From assembly GCA_024102725.1 (NCBI GenBank), contig JAGFJL010000010.1, forward strand, positions 1-64,000: a stretch of DNA of 64,000 bases, given 5' to 3'. Position 1 is the stretch's first letter, and each line of letters begins with the position of its first letter. This DNA is from Nitrococcus mobilis. Lineage in GTDB: Bacteria; Pseudomonadota; Gammaproteobacteria; Nitrococcales; Nitrococcaceae. Shown piece by piece: positions 13,092-21,584 of this stretch. Both the position numbers and the translations under genes were made by a program. A model generated the notes under the pieces. That model was not told where the DNA came from. It made no database searches and saw nothing but the letters and a program-made list of their open reading frames with translations.

Positions 13092-13643
13092 ATGAGCAAA
13101 ACGCCGCTCACGTTGATTCTTCTCATCCTCCCGCTGATGATGCCAGGCTGTCGATATTTTCCTCTCGAAAACGGCCAAGACGCGAGCTCCCAAGGCGCAG
13201 CGGAGCTTACTCGACCCGACCCGCGAGGAATCGCCGAACTGCTGGGTTACTATCGGGGCCTCGACGGGCTCGACGAGAACGGCCTGAAAACCCGCCTCAC
13301 TAGGCTCCAAAGCCGCTTACAAAAGGATGACTGCAGTACGGTTCGGTTGAAATCGGCTATGATACTCAGTAAGTTATCGGCCCACAGTGGCGGCCCGAAT
13401 AGCCAAACCATTTTAGACCCATGTCTGAATAATGCATTCAATCGGTATTCTGCTGCAGGCAAGCTCGCCTTCCTGCTGCAAGAGTTGATCGAAACCCGCA
13501 AGGCCGCCGACGGAGCTCAAGCCGAGCTACAAAATTACCATTACCGGATCAAAACGCTGCAAGATGAAAACGAAAAATTACATAAACAACTCGAGGGCAT
13601 AAAGGCTATTGAGAAAAGCATCCAGCAGCGTAACCAGCACTAG
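13092..13643 (+). CDS. qseG: QseG-like outer-membrane lipoprotein
   Basis: A 183-residue predicted lipoprotein. The signal peptide is residues 1-17 with the lipobox MMPGC (Cys18). The rest is helical, and the last ~50 residues (AELQNYHYRIKTLQDENEKLHKQLEGI) form a coiled coil. The middle has a Cys-containing stretch (KDDCSTVRLKSAMILSKL). In E. coli QseG sits in the outer membrane and contacts the sensor kinase periplasmic domain. Family likeness here is by position, size and architecture rather than strong motif, so the symbol is tentative. It lies between the kinase and regulator genes and ends 16 bases before glrR. Confidence 0.75.
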   Translation: MSKTPLTLILLILPLMMPGCRYFPLENGQDASSQGAAELTRPDPRGIAELLGYYRGLDGLDENGLKTRLTRLQSRLQKDDCSTVRLKSAMILSKLSAHSGGPNSQTILDPCLNNAFNRYSAAGKLAFLLQELIETRKAADGAQAELQNYHYRIKTLQDENEKLHKQLEGIKAIEKSIQQRNQH

Positions 13644-13659
13644 CGGAGTGGAACCCAAC

Positions 13660-15018
13660 ATGGCCAAAGACTACCGTATCCTGGTGGTCGACGACGACCC
13701 GGGAGTGCTGCGCCTGCTCTCCATTCGACTCAAATCCAACGGCTACGAAGTGGCAACCGCCCAAAGCGGTGAGGAAGCGCTATCGAATTTTGCGGGCATC
13801 AGGCCGCATCTGGTAATAGCGGATCTGCGCATGGACGGCATGGATGGCATGGCGCTGTTCCAGAACCTGCACAAACAGCATCCTACGCTGCCCGTGATCA
13901 TTCTTACGGCTCACGGGTCGATTCCGGATGCCGTAGAAGCAACCCAGAAAGGCGTCTTCGGCTTCATCACCAAGCCGTTCGAGGCCCCCGCGCTGTTGCA
14001 ACAAGTGGAAAGCGCCTTGCGCCTTTCGGGCATCGTGGAGCCGGACACCGCGGGCAAACAGACCAATACCTGGCGTGCCGAGATCATCAGCCGCAGCCCT
14101 TTGATGGAGGACGTCCTGCAGCGCGCTAAAATGATCGCTCCGAGCGAAGCCAGTGTATTCATACAGGGCGAGAGTGGCACCGGTAAAGAATTGCTGGCAA
14201 AAGCCCTCCATAATACAAGCCGGCGCAGCAAGGGCCCCTTCATCGCCGTCAACTGCGGCGCGATACCCGAACCACTGCTGGAATCCGAACTTTTCGGCCA
14301 TAAAAAAGGCGCCTTCACAGGCGCTAATCAAGACCACGAGGGCCTTTTCAAGGCCGCTGACGGCGGGACGCTGTTCCTCGATGAAATCGGGGATATGCCG
14401 CTTGCGCTCCAGGTCAAACTGCTGCGAGTGCTGCAAGAGCATCAGGTGCGGCCAGTCGGCTACACGCAGGATATATCCGTCAATGTGCGGATCATCTCCG
14501 CTACCCATCGTGACCTAGAACAAGAGATGGCCGAGGGTCGTTTCCGCGAGGACCTCTACTATCGGCTCAATGTGGTCACTTTATCCTTGCCCTCGCTCGC
14601 GCAGCGCCGAGAGGATGTGCCTGTTCTGGCCAACCACTTCCTTCATCAGCTGGCGCACAAGTATGAAAAGAATCTCAAAGGCTTCTCGCAGGAGGCCATG
14701 GAGCACCTGGTCAGCGCCCAATGGCCGGGTAATATCCGTCAGCTTTACAATGTAATCGAGCAGGTGGCGATTTTATCCACGACGCCGATCATTTCATACG
14801 ATCTGGTGCAGCAAGCCTTGCGGGAGGATGTCCCTGGTCTGCCGCCTTTTGCCGATGCCCGACGTGATTTCGAGCGCGGTTACTTAGTCAAGCTGCTGCA
14901 GATCACCGAAGGTAATGTCAGCCGTGCTGCCCGACTGGCGAAAAGAAACCGTACCGAATTCTACAAATTGCTCAACCGCCACGACCTCAACCCCAGCCTG
15001 TTCAAACAGGCACGTTGA
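13660..15018 (+). CDS. glrR: Sigma-54 response regulator GlrR/QseF-like
   Basis: A 452-residue NtrC-family activator. The receiver domain (about 1-120) has VVDDDPG and the phospho-Asp in [12 protein letters not shown]. The AAA+ domain has Walker A GESGTGKE, an intact sigma-54 contact loop KKGAFTGA (about 214-221), and Walker B LFLDEIGD. The C-terminus carries a Fis-type helix-turn-helix ([24 protein letters not shown]). Activates sigma-54 promoters when phosphorylated by the neighbouring kinase. ATG 13660 is preferred over an upstream in-frame codon at 13609 because GGAGTGG precedes it and the domain starts at once. No gene follows for 0.7 kb. Confidence 0.92.
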
Positions 15019-15749: not shown

Positions 15750-15750
15750 T
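15711..15750 (-). terminator. Strong stem-loop at the sulP 3' end
   Basis: ACAACCCCTG (15711-15720) pairs perfectly with CAGGGGTTGT (15741-15750), and TCGAA/TTCGA (15723-15727, 15734-15738) pair inside. The right arm touches the sulP stop codon. Position fits a terminator for sulP, but there is no T-run after the stem on the minus strand, so Rho-dependent ending or mRNA 3'-end protection is equally possible. Confidence 0.5.
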
Positions 15751-17519
15751 CAGTGCTCGGCACCATTGAACCCCTTCGAGCGCCCTGTATCGGCGAAGGC
15801 CTCGAATGCCTGCCCCGCGGTAAGATAAGTGCGCTCAGCAATCCGCTGCCCTAGACGAGTAGGGCGTAAGCGGTCCTGCACCGGCCCTTTTACCTCGGCT
15901 AGATACAAAACGATGCCGGCATGCGCCAGTGCCTCTTCCAGATGTTCGAGCATCTCCAGGCCGCTCGCATCGATGTAATTGACTGCGGCCATCACCAGCA
16001 ACAGTTTCTGCGTATCCGGTGCAGCCGCCAAGTGTCGGGTTATGAAATCCTCAACCTGGGCGGCGTTGGCAAAATAAATGCTTTCATCGATGCGTACCGC
16101 CAGCACCTGCGGGTTGGTCTGCGCCACGTAACGGTTGACGTTGCGGAAATGCTCGGTACCAGGAAGCCGGCCAACCACCACGATGTGCGGATGGCCGGTG
16201 CGCCACAAGTACAATGCCAGCGACAGGACGATGCCCATCAACAAACCCAGCTCGATACCGAGTCCCAGCACCGCCACGCCCGTTACCGCCAAGGCGGCGC
16301 CGTCGGCACGGTCGTAGGCCCAAACCCGGCGCGCGCCAGCCACGTCGATCAGCTGCGCAACTGCGACGACGATGATCGCCGCCAACACCGCATCCGGTAA
16401 GGAGTAGAACCAGCCCGTGAAAAACAAAGCGACCACGCCGATCAGCCCGGCGGTGATGATACCGGCCAGCTGAGTACGGGCACCGACGTCGAAGTTGACC
16501 ACCGAGCGCGAAAAACCACCGGCCACCGGCAGGGTGCCGACCACAGCGGCGGCGAGGTTGCTCATGCCAAGGGCGACGAGCTCCCGGTTGGCATCGACTT
16601 TCTGGCGTCGGCGCGCGGCCAATACCTTGGCGAGCGATACGCTTTCCACATAACCCATCAAGGCGATCAGCACCGCTGAGGGCAGCAGCGCGCGCCAGCC
16701 CGGCGCGGAGAGGAAATCAAGCGACGGCACCGGCAGCCCCGCCGGCACGGTGCCTACCACGGCCAGCCCATAGATGCTCTCGGCATCGAGTAGTGCGGCC
16801 GCTAGCGTAGCCAAAATTACGACGACCAGCGGGATCGTGCGTACAATCAACCCGGCGCCACGAGCGTCCATACCGATCCGTTGCAATAGGCGCATGAGCG
16901 GGCTGCGCCCCGCCAGCAACACTATGAGGGCAGCCAAGCCAAACGTTAGGGTTGGAACGTGCAGCTCATCGAAATGGCTTGTGAGCGCCTGCAGTGTCTC
17001 GAAGACGCCACCACGGGCCAAATCGATACCCAGCAGATGCTTGATCTGGCTCGTTATGATCAGCACCGCCGCGCCGCTGGTAAACCCTGAGAGCACGGGG
17101 TGGCTGATGAAGTTGACCAAAACACCGAGCCGGAATATCCCGAGCAGCGCGAGAAACAGCCCTCCTTCGGCAGCCAGAATAACGGCGCCGCTCAGCCAAA
17201 GCTGCCGATCTCCACCGCTGTAGTCGTTGAGCGCGTTGGCCACCATGAGCGCAAGCACCGCCACGGGGCCTACCCCCAGCACCCGACTGGTGCCGAACAA
17301 AGCATACGCGAGCGGCGGGATGATCGACGCATATAGCCCCATTTCCGGCGGCAGGCCGGCCAGCACAGCATAGGCCATGCTCTGCGGCACCAGCAGAATG
17401 GCGGCTATGATTCCGGCGATCAGATCGTCCGACCAAGCGCCACGGCCAGTGGCGCGCAACTGTCCGAGCAGAGGCAGCAAGCGCAACAAGGCATACTGTG
17501 CCCTGGTACCCCCCCTCAT
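15750..17519 (-). CDS. SulP-family anion transporter with STAS domain
   Basis: A 589-residue inner-membrane protein with 10-12 hydrophobic segments and a cytoplasmic STAS domain at the end (about 450-560; MAAVNYIDASGLEML is the STAS signature). The SulP hallmark VPQSMAYAVLAGLPPEMGLYASIIPPLAYALFGTS (about 43-78) is clear. SulP proteins carry sulfate, bicarbonate or other anions. The gene starts 7 bases after the persulfide dioxygenase gene, so the two form one transcript. In this context export of sulfite or sulfate made by sulfide oxidation, or sulfate/bicarbonate exchange, is plausible but inferred. Confidence 0.92.
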   Translation of the reverse strand: MRGGTRAQYALLRLLPLLGQLRATGRGAWSDDLIAGIIAAILLVPQSMAYAVLAGLPPEMGLYASIIPPLAYALFGTSRVLGVGPVAVLALMVANALNDYSGGDRQLWLSGAVILAAEGGLFLALLGIFRLGVLVNFISHPVLSGFTSGAAVLIITSQIKHLLGIDLARGGVFETLQALTSHFDELHVPTLTFGLAALIVLLAGRSPLMRLLQRIGMDARGAGLIVRTIPLVVVILATLAAALLDAESIYGLAVVGTVPAGLPVPSLDFLSAPGWRALLPSAVLIALMGYVESVSLAKVLAARRRQKVDANRELVALGMSNLAAAVVGTLPVAGGFSRSVVNFDVGARTQLAGIITAGLIGVVALFFTGWFYSLPDAVLAAIIVVAVAQLIDVAGARRVWAYDRADGAALAVTGVAVLGLGIELGLLMGIVLSLALYLWRTGHPHIVVVGRLPGTEHFRNVNRYVAQTNPQVLAVRIDESIYFANAAQVEDFITRHLAAAPDTQKLLLVMAAVNYIDASGLEMLEHLEEALAHAGIVLYLAEVKGPVQDRLRPTRLGQRIAERTYLTAGQAFEAFADTGRSKGFNGAEH

Positions 17520-17526
17520 CGCCGCT

Positions 17527-18234
17527 TCATGCTCGCTGTCCGCAAGCCAGATTGGCCGGCACCGCCACGTCCATCATCTTGGGATCGGGCAGGTTCAGGC
17601 TGCGCATGATCTCGGCATATTGCTCAGCGCTCTTGCCGGCTAGACGCGGGTTGAAACGCCGCTCCTCCCAGATGGTGGAGACCGTGAAACCCTTATAATC
17701 GTGAGCCGGGTACACCCGCGTTTCCTCACCCAACGCAAACAATTTGTTCACGATCGAATCGTACGATGCGTAAGGATCGCCGCCCTGGAAGTCCGTGCGC
17801 CCCGAACCGCGGATTAGCAGTACATCACCGGTGAACACGGCATCCTCACATTCGCCACGCCCATCGCGCACAAAACTGAACGATTCGTTCGTATGACCCG
17901 GTGTGTACAGCGCCTTGAGCCGGACTCCGTCGACATCGACGATCTCACCCTCGCGGACATGTTGCGAGACACACTCGGCTCTCGTGAACTCGCCCATGAG
18001 GGTCACACAACCGGTGGCATCACGCAGATCGCCAAGCGCGGTAATATGGTCGGCGTGCGTGTGCGTATCGATGGCGCGCACGAGCTTAAGATCAAGCTGC
18101 TCGATCAAGCCGAGATAAACTGGCATCTGCTCTTTGACCGGATCGATGATCAGCGCTTCCCGGCCCTTGCCGGATGCGATCAGATACGTATAGGTGCTGG
18201 ATTGCCGGTCGAACAATTGACGGAACAGCATCAT
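17527..18234 (-). CDS. Persulfide dioxygenase (ETHE1-type metallo-beta-lactamase fold)
   Basis: A 235-residue cytoplasmic enzyme. The metal-binding HTHADH (about 58-63), the second His in TPGHTNES (His114), the Asp in FTGDVLLIRGSGRTDF (Asp137) and the His in YPAHDYKG (His178) match ETHE1-like persulfide dioxygenases; the SGRTDFQGG block separates them from glyoxalase II. They use iron and O2 to oxidise glutathione persulfide to sulfite. The gene is divergent from sqr, whose product generates the persulfide, and is followed by sulP. GGGGG stands just before tandem ATG codons. Both promoters share a palindromic control region at 18249-18278. Confidence 0.92.
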   Translation of the reverse strand: MMLFRQLFDRQSSTYTYLIASGKGREALIIDPVKEQMPVYLGLIEQLDLKLVRAIDTHTHADHITALGDLRDATGCVTLMGEFTRAECVSQHVREGEIVDVDGVRLKALYTPGHTNESFSFVRDGRGECEDAVFTGDVLLIRGSGRTDFQGGDPYASYDSIVNKLFALGEETRVYPAHDYKGFTVSTIWEERRFNPRLAGKSAEQYAEIMRSLNLPDPKMMDVAVPANLACGQRA

Positions 18235-18248
18235 GTACCCCCAATCAC

Positions 18249-18278
18249 CATATTCATTTTTGGAATATGCTTATTCCA
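18249..18278. promoter_or_regulatory. Two overlapping palindromes, probable sulfide-responsive operator (BigR/SqrR type)
   Basis: CATATTC-N7-GAATATG (18249-18269) and TGGAATA-N4-TATTCCA (18261-18278) are both perfect 7-base inverted repeats sharing the GAATA half. They lie in the 99-base gap between the divergent persulfide dioxygenase and sqr genes. ATTC...GAAT symmetry is what ArsR-family persulfide sensors of the BigR/SqrR group recognise, as I recall it. Binding would cover both promoters. No ArsR-type regulator gene is in the window. Confidence 0.6.
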
Positions 18279-18333
18279 TTTACACTAGTACACTATGCCC
18301 CGGCGGGCAACCGTTTATGAGAGGAGATTCGCT

Positions 18334-19578
18334 ATGACATCCCCGCAAGCCACAAACAAGCGCCACGTCGTGGCCATCGTCGGTGGCGGCACGGCTGGCC
18401 TGGCGGTAGCCGCGGCGCTGCTGCGCCGACAATCCGATCTCGACGTCGCGGTAATCGAGCCGAGCGAGGATCACTACTATCAGCCTGGCTGGACCCTGGT
18501 CGGTGGCGGCGATATGCTGGCCGTCCAGACCCGACGCAGTGAAGCGGAGGTGATGCCGCCCAAGGCGACCTGGATCAAGGACGCGGTGGCCTCCTTTCAA
18601 CCCGAGGAGAACCGTCTCACGCTGGCCTCCGGCGGTACGCTCGAATACCGCTTCCTGGTCGTCGCCGCAGGCCTGCAGATCAACTGGGATGCGATCGAGG
18701 GGCTGCCCGAGACGCTCGGCAAGAACGGCGTAACCTCCAACTACCGCTACGATCTGGCTCCCTACACTCACCAACTGACCGAGTCATTCGACGGCGGCGC
18801 GGCGCTGTTCACCCAACCGGCGATGCCGATCAAATGCGCCGGAGCGCCACAGAAGGCGCTGTATCTGTCGGCGGACACCTTCCGGCGCCGCGGCATCAAA
18901 GCCAACATCGGCTTCTACAATCAGGGCGGCGCCATGTTCAGTGTGCCCGCCTACGCCAAGGCGCTGGACAAGATCATCGCGGGCTACGGCGCCACACCCT
19001 ATTTCAAGCACGATCTGATCGCGGTGGATGGCGACAAGCGCGAAGCCACCTTCCAGACCGAAACCGGCACCGTGACCCGGCATTTCGATTTGCTGCACGT
19101 GGTACCGCCACAGTCGGCGCCGGATTTCGTCAAGACCAGCCCGCTCGCCGGTGCGGCCGGCTGGGTCAGCGTGGACAAGCACCGTCTGCGTCACACTCGC
19201 TACGACAATGTCTTCGCACTCGGCGACTGCACCGACACCCCCAACGCCAAGACCATGGCGGCAGCACGGCGCCAGTTCCCGGTCGTGGTCGCCGGCCTGC
19301 TCCAAGCGCTCGGCCACATCAACGAGGCGGCCGAATACGACGGCTACGGGGCCTGCCCGCTGACCACCGCGCACGGCAAGGTCATGCTGGCCGAGTTCCG
19401 CTACGACGGCGAGGTGATGGCGAGTTTCCCACTCGATCCGCGCGTTCCCCGCCGCACGTATTGGGCGCTGAAACGCCACTTCTTCCCCTGGCTGTACTGG
19501 AATGTAATGCTCAAGGGCCGCGATTGGAGTTGGCCGGAGCATAAGCCATGCCCGCGGCTCACGGCACAACCGGCGTAA
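18334..19578 (+). CDS. sqr: Sulfide:quinone oxidoreductase (SQOR-like, type II)
   Basis: A 414-residue FAD enzyme. The dinucleotide-binding loop VGGGTAGLAVA (about 16-26) is followed by HYYQPGWTLVGGG; the two redox cysteines appear as IKCAGAPQK (Cys168) and GACPLTTAHGKVMLAEF (Cys341), the pattern of mitochondrial SQOR-type enzymes rather than the type I SQR of phototrophs. FALGDC marks the second FAD contact. The enzyme oxidises sulfide to a persulfide and passes electrons to ubiquinone at the inner membrane. GAGGAG stands 7 bases before ATG 18334; an in-frame ATG at 18295 lies within the likely operator-promoter area. It diverges from the persulfide dioxygenase gene. Confidence 0.93.
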   Translation: MTSPQATNKRHVVAIVGGGTAGLAVAAALLRRQSDLDVAVIEPSEDHYYQPGWTLVGGGDMLAVQTRRSEAEVMPPKATWIKDAVASFQPEENRLTLASGGTLEYRFLVVAAGLQINWDAIEGLPETLGKNGVTSNYRYDLAPYTHQLTESFDGGAALFTQPAMPIKCAGAPQKALYLSADTFRRRGIKANIGFYNQGGAMFSVPAYAKALDKIIAGYGATPYFKHDLIAVDGDKREATFQTETGTVTRHFDLLHVVPPQSAPDFVKTSPLAGAAGWVSVDKHRLRHTRYDNVFALGDCTDTPNAKTMAAARRQFPVVVAGLLQALGHINEAAEYDGYGACPLTTAHGKVMLAEFRYDGEVMASFPLDPRVPRRTYWALKRHFFPWLYWNVMLKGRDWSWPEHKPCPRLTAQPA

Positions 19579-19737: not shown

Positions 19738-20298
19738 TTACTCTTTGCTCGGGCGTTTGCCGAGCTTGCGCTGCAGCGTGCGCCGGTGCATGCGCAAGGC
19801 GCGCGCAGTAGCGGATATATTGCCCCCGTGGGCTTTTAGCACCCGCTGCAGATGCTCCCACTCCAAACGCTTGACCGAGGTCGGGTGCGCGGGCGGCACG
19901 ACCTCGGTGTTCGCTTTTTGACAACCCAGCGCGGCGACAATCTCATCGGCATCGGCGGGTTTGGCGAGATAATGCACGGCCCCGAGCTTGATCGCCTCCA
20001 CTGCCGTAGCGATGCTCGCATAGCCGGTGAGCACCACGATCCGCATCGTCTCTCGCAGCGCCAATAATCGTTGCACCACGGGCAGCCCCGAATCCTCTCC
20101 GAGCCTAAGATCAACGACCGCGCAGCTCGGCACCCGATGCAGCGCCACCGCCAGCGCTTCAGCCGCGGTCTGCGCCACATCGACCTCGAAGCCCCGCCGA
20201 GTCAGCGCTTGCGCCAAAACCCGGCAAAACACCGGATCATCGTCCACCAGCAAAAACGTCTCTCGATCGAGTACCATCATCAACGCGCATCCGGTCAC
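19738..20298 (-). CDS. regA: Redox response regulator RegA/PrrA/ActR-like
   Basis: A 186-residue response regulator. The receiver has LLVDDDPVF, phospho-Asp in VVDLRLGEDSG (Asp63, the same number as in Rhodobacter RegA) and Lys in LAKPADADE. The end is a Fis-like helix-turn-helix (HGGNISATARALRMHRRTLQRKLGKRP) almost identical in style to the family. RegA controls respiration, carbon and sulfur genes under changing redox. The start is probably the GTG at 20298, two bases after the regB stop; ATG codons at 20280 and 20277 are alternatives. Confidence 0.9.
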   Translation of the reverse strand: MTGCALMMVLDRETFLLVDDDPVFCRVLAQALTRRGFEVDVAQTAAEALAVALHRVPSCAVVDLRLGEDSGLPVVQRLLALRETMRIVVLTGYASIATAVEAIKLGAVHYLAKPADADEIVAALGCQKANTEVVPPAHPTSVKRLEWEHLQRVLKAHGGNISATARALRMHRRTLQRKLGKRPSKE

Positions 20299-20300
20299 GT

Positions 20301-21584
20301 TCAGGCCGCCGCCCGCAGCCGCTCCAACGGCAGCAATACCTGCGCTACCGTCCCGCCACCGCTGCGCGGGCTCAGTGTGAGCGCACCGCCCAGGCGCTCT
20401 ATGATGCCCTGGGTCAAATAAAGCCCCAAACCATTGCCGGTTACCTTGGTAGTCACCGGCGCCCGTCCCAGTACGGCAGCGATCTTGGGACTGAGCCCCG
20501 CACCACGATCGGCCACAGTCAGCTCCAGCGTGTCGTCTGCCACCTCGGCTGCCACGCTGATCTGGTGGGGCGAGGCATCCGCCGCATTATGGAGCAGATT
20601 GACGAGGGACTGGGTGAGCGTGCGATCGGCGACGATTCGCAACCCCGATGGCAGCATGGAGCCGTTGTATTCCACGCGCACGCCTGGGCGCAGCACCTGC
20701 CATTGGCTGAGCAAATCCTGCAGATAACGATCCAGCGCCACGGCGCAACCGGATTCGGCGCGCACTTCACCCGCCGAGGCCGAAATCGTGGTCAACGCCT
20801 GTCGGCAACGCCCGATTTGCGCTTGCAGAATACCTAGGTTCTCCTGATCATCCGGCGGGCGCGGCTGCGCTTGCATCTCCTTTAGCAAAACCGCCATAGT
20901 ACCCAACGGCGTCCCCAACTCGTGGGCCGCCCCGGCAGCCAGGGTGGCCAAACTGAGTAGACGCTCGTCGCGCAAAGCACGTTCGCGTGCTCGCGCCAGA
21001 GCATGCTCCTGCTCGCGCAGCGTCTGCCCCATCCCGGCGACGAAATAAGCAATCAAGGCGGCACTGAGCATAAACCCCAGCCACATACCGAGCACATGCA
21101 TCTGGAAGTGGCCACCGGCTCCGCCGGCACCCGATAGTGGCCGGTACAACACCATAAGGCCGGAGTAGCAGGCGATCGTCACGGTGGCAATGATCCAGGT
21201 CTGCCGGCGTGAGAGCACGGTGGCGGCAATGGTCAGGGACAGCAGCAACAACCATACGAATGGATTGGTGGCGCCGCCGGTAAAGTAGAGCAAAGCGGTC
21301 AAACCCAGCACGTCGGCCAATAAATGGACCATGAACTCATGGCTGCCGGGTTGCTGACGCTTGAGCCGCCGCCACGCCACGGCGTTGAGCAAAGCAAGCC
21401 CGGCGATAATGAGACCCACGTCGGCAAGCGGCACGGCCATATTCAACGCGAACGCGGCCACGAGCACGGCCACCGTCTGTCCGGCGATCGTAAAATTGCG
21501 CAGCATTAACAGCCGGCGCAGGTTGATCCGCGTGGAGGCTTCGTGCATACCTGTCATTTGGATTGGCATGGACGTCTCGCTCAT
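20301..21584 (-). CDS. regB: Redox sensor histidine kinase RegB/PrrB-like
   Basis: A 427-residue kinase. Six hydrophobic segments occupy residues 25-185; GGATNPF (103-109) is the ubiquinone-binding motif of RegB. The H-box AAHELGTPLGTM has His221, and the redox cysteine is conserved in GRCRQAL (Cys260). The HATPase end has VNLLHNAADASP and GNGLGLYL. RegB senses the quinone pool; placed next to sqr, which feeds electrons into that pool, it probably ties sulfide oxidation to redox state. regA follows at once in the same operon. No clear ribosome site; ATG codons at residues 6, 10 and 13 are possible later starts. Confidence 0.9.
   Translation of the reverse strand: MSETSMPIQMTGMHEASTRINLRRLLMLRNFTIAGQTVAVLVAAFALNMAVPLADVGLIIAGLALLNAVAWRRLKRQQPGSHEFMVHLLADVLGLTALLYFTGGATNPFVWLLLLSLTIAATVLSRRQTWIIATVTIACYSGLMVLYRPLSGAGGAGGHFQMHVLGMWLGFMLSAALIAYFVAGMGQTLREQEHALARARERALRDERLLSLATLAAGAAHELGTPLGTMAVLLKEMQAQPRPPDDQENLGILQAQIGRCRQALTTISASAGEVRAESGCAVALDRYLQDLLSQWQVLRPGVRVEYNGSMLPSGLRIVADRTLTQSLVNLLHNAADASPHQISVAAEVADDTLELTVADRGAGLSPKIAAVLGRAPVTTKVTGNGLGLYLTQGIIERLGGALTLSPRSGGGTVAQVLLPLERLRAAA

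Follow-up and report, generated by a model that had tools for sequence, protein, structure and literature searches.

The 99-bp gap that separates divergently transcribed genes for a persulfide dioxygenase (pdo) and a sulfide:quinone oxidoreductase (sqr) in the window, the whole 64,000-nucleotide stretch of DNA analysed here, is probably a real divergent control element of an ordinary kind, conserved within the genus Nitrococcus, as judged by sequence comparison. We arrived at a shared control element from the statistics of two overlapping dyads in the gap, their conservation in four Nitrococcus genomes, and their position over the only space that could hold a pdo promoter. Our preferred reading, held tentatively, is that of a genus-specific divergent promoter and operator for sqr on one side and for pdo with its neighbouring sulP gene on the other, bound by a dimeric regulator outside the SqrR/BigR, CstR and FisR kinds.

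Gene context of the gap

On the minus strand at 17,527–18,234, pdo encodes an ETHE1-type persulfide dioxygenase, assigned by its matches to ETHE1-type proteins (best E 8.6e-73; human ETHE1, E 9e-57). A gene for a SulP-family anion transporter (15,750–17,519, minus strand) comes 7 bp behind pdo, an order that is kept in relatives; the two genes probably belong to the same operon. Across the gap (18,235–18,333), sqr (18,334–19,578, plus strand) encodes an enzyme of the SQOR kind, which matches human mitochondrial SQOR with E 1.8e-98 and keeps the KCAGAPQK stretch. The gene names proposed in a preliminary description of this DNA hold in the light of these matches. The nearest relatives of the SQR come from a same-genus assembly (94%) and from Nitrococcus mobilis (93%), which places the window in the genus Nitrococcus. 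Both of these close relatives carry an identical block, consisting of sulP-pdo, the divergent sqr, and then convergent regA/regB-type genes. These RegA/RegB (ActR/ActS)-type redox two-component genes, found at 19,738–21,584 in the window and convergent to sqr, keep their place in two other Nitrococcus genomes. RegB acts in other bacteria as a sensor of the quinone redox state, and SQR reduces quinone.

Two overlapping dyads between pdo and sqr

Two perfect 7+7 palindromes that share a GAATA are present in the gap, exactly as the preliminary description had stated. Dyad 1 (18,249–18,269; CATATTC-N7-GAATATG) has a spacer of 7 (CATATTC-ATTTTTG-GAATATG), dyad 2 (18,261–18,278; TGGAATA-N4-TATTCCA) has a spacer of 4 (TGGAATA-TGCT-TATTCCA), and their overlap of 9 bp (18,261–18,269) includes the common GAATA. 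The pair thus contains half-sites a′ (TATTC, 18,251–18,255), b (GAATA, 18,263–18,267, common to both dyads) and c′ (TATTC, 18,272–18,276), with a′ and c′ forming direct repeats 21 bp, or two turns, apart and b in between. The dyads are located 14–44 bp before the pdo ATG and 55 bp before sqr.

These are the only dyads in the 99-bp gap with arms of at least 6 and a spacer of up to 12. When the gap was dinucleotide-shuffled 5000 times, 3.2% of the products contained one such dyad or more and 0.02% contained two, the latter figure overstating the surprise since the common half makes the dyads non-independent; across the window, dyads of such size occur at about 1.2 per kb. An RNA hairpin in either leader was not notable (z −1.4 and −0.7).

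Conservation of the site in Nitrococcus

Allowing up to two mismatches, the three half-sites with their N7/N4 spacing occurred in four of the five Nitrococcus genomes, each of which has a single copy. The site was located between sqr and pdo in three of them, and in another (G004) it adjoins pdo at the end of a contig, where the sequence reaches the start of sqr; the fifth genome (G002) showed neither an sqr match nor the site. Across the four genomes, all from one genus, 13 of 15 half-site columns were invariant (4/5 in a′, 4/5 in b and 5/5 in c′) compared to 33 of the 84 other gap columns (one-sided Fisher P 0.0007), and the four positions separating b from c′ varied freely. In N. mobilis, dyad 1 reads ATATTT instead of ATATTC, making it imperfect; its spacer of 7 is kept in all four genomes. 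Dyad 2 is present in three other Nitrococcus genomes with 1–2 mismatches, and the site copies of N. mobilis and G004 are imperfect dyads. Separately, the start of sqr appears in two contexts in G004 (contigs C157 and C214), one adjoining pdo and carrying all three half-sites, the other following msrB and carrying only b and c′; a duplication could account for this, as could a mixture of strains (6% contamination).

The preliminary description had looked to relatives for the same site upstream of sqr, and this was borne out within the genus (four of five genomes) and not outside it, the three-half-site pattern being absent upstream of sqr in the examined Salinisphaera, Marinobacter and similar loci. 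A search of 369 genomes of the class returned six further matches to the pattern, none near sqr or pdo. The genome scan for the same palindrome that had also been proposed did not reveal a regulon: with dyad 2 and up to two mismatches, the extra matches that were checked lay in long open frames, one match in G002 adjoins an unrelated gene, and a further conserved site between genes did not emerge.

Search for a matching regulator

We searched the five Nitrococcus genomes for a BigR/SqrR/YgaV-type gene using the BigR model, the HTH_20 family and an 11-protein alignment (E. coli YgaV, nine BigR-like proteins and the window genome's ArsR), and found none. No genome of the class sample passed the curated BigR cut-off of 155 bits, so scores well below it were used together with the YgaV alignment. 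N. mobilis, estimated to be 100% complete, was among the five genomes, and roughly 4% of the window genome is unassembled. The two-cysteine, ArsR-type persulfide sensor that the preliminary description had deduced from the ATTC...GAAT symmetry was accordingly not detected in any of the five genomes, including N. mobilis. In the window genome, the arsR helix-turn-helix family gave three matches, of which one is a real ArsR and two are other winged-helix proteins (SufR-like and MarR/CudC-like). The window genome has no ArsR/SmtB-type repressor other than that ArsR, which is an arsenical one, scoring 97.5 bits against the PRK10141 ArsR cut-off of 97 and adjoining arsC; the N. mobilis match resembles this arsenical ArsR, and the G003 match is another ArsR/SmtB-type protein. 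The SufR-like winged-helix protein (L002:1027–1704, on contig C160 of G000) scored 61 bits where the SufR cut-off is 178.8, has four C-terminal cysteines and adjoins an ABC-transporter permease-like gene; it is possibly an Fe-S sensor. The ArsR genes of sphingomonad sqr loci, tried as a positive control, were rejected, having neither the cysteine pair nor ATTC-N-GAAT dyads.

At the operator level, the SqrR consensus has been reported as ATTC-N8-GAAT (PMC9774250), whereas the gap dyad has N7 in all four Nitrococcus genomes. Regions upstream of BigR-like genes of the class did not contain ATTC-N8-GAAT either, and E. coli ygaV did not have it in exact form; we therefore did not rest the rejection of BigR/SqrR on the N8 consensus alone. 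Upstream of 25 gammaproteobacterial BigR-like ArsR genes (loci L149–L178; 23 of the 25 two-Cys by motif), we instead counted 15 copies of TTAG-N6-CTAA in 10 of the 25 regions, with zero copies at spacings of 3–5 and 7–11 and 0–1 for control half-sites. This motif had been noticed in the same sequences before counting, the exclusive N6 spacing being the independent sign, and it is a candidate autoregulatory operator of these repressors. None was found in the Nitrococcus gap.

Taken together, the reading of the gap as a divergent BigR/SqrR operator survived as far as a shared control element is concerned, supported by dyad statistics, conservation and position, and failed in its identity. The ATTC...GAAT symmetry does resemble the reported consensus and the target genes would suit such a repressor, but the lack of such a gene in five genomes, the arsenical nature of the window genome's sole ArsR/SmtB repressor, the spacer of 7 and the absent TTAG-N6-CTAA make binding by a persulfide-sensing SqrR/BigR/YgaV-type repressor hardly probable. 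Since neither the regulator nor its likely operator was found here, the BigR/SqrR reading appears largely refuted and is not supported by our comparison.

We also inspected the gap for the sites of other sulfide regulators. The CstR/CsoR-type box (ATACCC/GGG(G)TAT) is absent from it, and neither strand contains the sigma-54 pattern GG-N9..11-GC. In Salinisphaera and others (L019–L024, L030), ATACCC-N4-GGGGTAT boxes resembling CsoR/CstR operators occur 40–45 bp before sqr, which suggests that another regulator controls these close relatives of sqr. Among the window genes scanned (one set of 6 and another of 40), the only specific DNA-binding transcription regulators were the RegA-type response regulator (19,738–20,298) and an NtrC/GlrR-type protein (13,609–15,018).

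Discussion

Our preferred operator reading would work as follows. Half-sites a′, b and c′ would act as three alternating GAATA half-sites, building two overlapping dyads that fill the only room for a pdo promoter and lie near the likely −35 of sqr. A dimeric helix-turn-helix regulator probably binds these dyads; we infer this binding, as well as the direction of control and the effector. With b common to both dyads, separate dimers would be unable to fill both at once, and one bound complex would then set both genes together. The rarity of two overlapping dyads in shuffles, the conservation with fixed spacing, the kept gene order and the negative searches for BigR/SqrR/YgaV-type genes, a CsoR box and a sigma-54 pattern speak for such an operator, whereas the failure to find a regulator gene for the gap, the missing second conserved intergenic site and hence regulon, the restriction to four genomes of one genus, the imperfect dyads of N. 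mobilis and G004, and the coincidence of the half-sites with possible promoter hexamers speak against it. A bolder version would place Nitrococcus sqr and pdo under a sulfur or redox sensor from a protein family so far unconnected with sulfide oxidation, acting through a switch of three half-sites whose overlapping dyads compete for the half common to both; in our judgement it is unlikely.

The main rival, which we consider possible if somewhat doubtful, holds that two sigma-70 promoters overlap here in opposite directions and that there is no dedicated operator: an sqr −35 (TTGGAA) would face a pdo −35 (TGGAAT, on the other strand), producing the inverted repeats, and a pdo −10 (GAATAT) would lie 17 bp from its −35. 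Promoters must indeed lie in the gap, two genomes keep TGGAAT-17-GAATAT on the pdo strand and two others come close to it, and no regulator was found; however, the hexamers match the consensus poorly (3–4 of 6), a consensus scan returned no promoter-like site, and a perfect 7+7 symmetry occurring twice is more than hexamers need. Chance palindromes without function would be consistent with the single dyad seen in 3% of shuffled gaps and with the background of such dyads in the window, yet we regard them as very improbable given how rarely two overlapping dyads arose (0.02%) and how the half-sites are conserved at fixed spacing. As a special case of the operator reading, a LysR-type regulator could activate or repress both genes from dyad 1 and a weaker site around c′. 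The TTC-N7-GAA of dyad 1 fits T-N11-A, the LysR-type recognition motif (PMC12609908), and the a′/c′ repeats lie 21 bp apart, but T-N11-A is a loose motif and no LysR gene was seen among the window genes scanned; we regard this case as quite improbable.

The persulfide responses known from bacterial sqr and pdo genes run through SqrR/BigR, CstR or FisR. Nitrococcus, whose members are marine nitrite-oxidising bacteria, retains both enzymes and a divergent control site that is conserved, without the operator types of these regulators there and without a BigR/SqrR-type gene found. If protein binding is confirmed, the site would point to another sulfur sensor in this genus. The comparison additionally yielded TTAG-N6-CTAA as a candidate operator for gammaproteobacterial BigR-like repressors.

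Set against known systems, the gap differs from each in part. Activation of sqr-pdo by FisR and sigma-54, as described in Cupriavidus and Acinetobacter (PMC7315123), concerns the same target enzymes, but the Nitrococcus gap is without the sigma-54 GG-N10-GC. CstR/CsoR control has the same target gene in close SQR relatives, whereas Nitrococcus lacks the box and only one of its five genomes has CsoR-family genes. Compared to SqrR/BigR/YgaV systems, no such regulator gene was detected, the spacer is 7 rather than 8 and the dyad seen at BigR-like genes of the class is TTAG-N6-CTAA instead; the likeness consists of an AT-rich dyad in a sulfide-oxidation promoter with ATTC/GAAT half-sites as in R. 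capsulatus SqrR. Unlike LysR-type systems, the Nitrococcus gap has no adjoining regulator gene, but it resembles their sites on divergent promoters in its T-N11-A dyad and in half-site repeats two helical turns apart.
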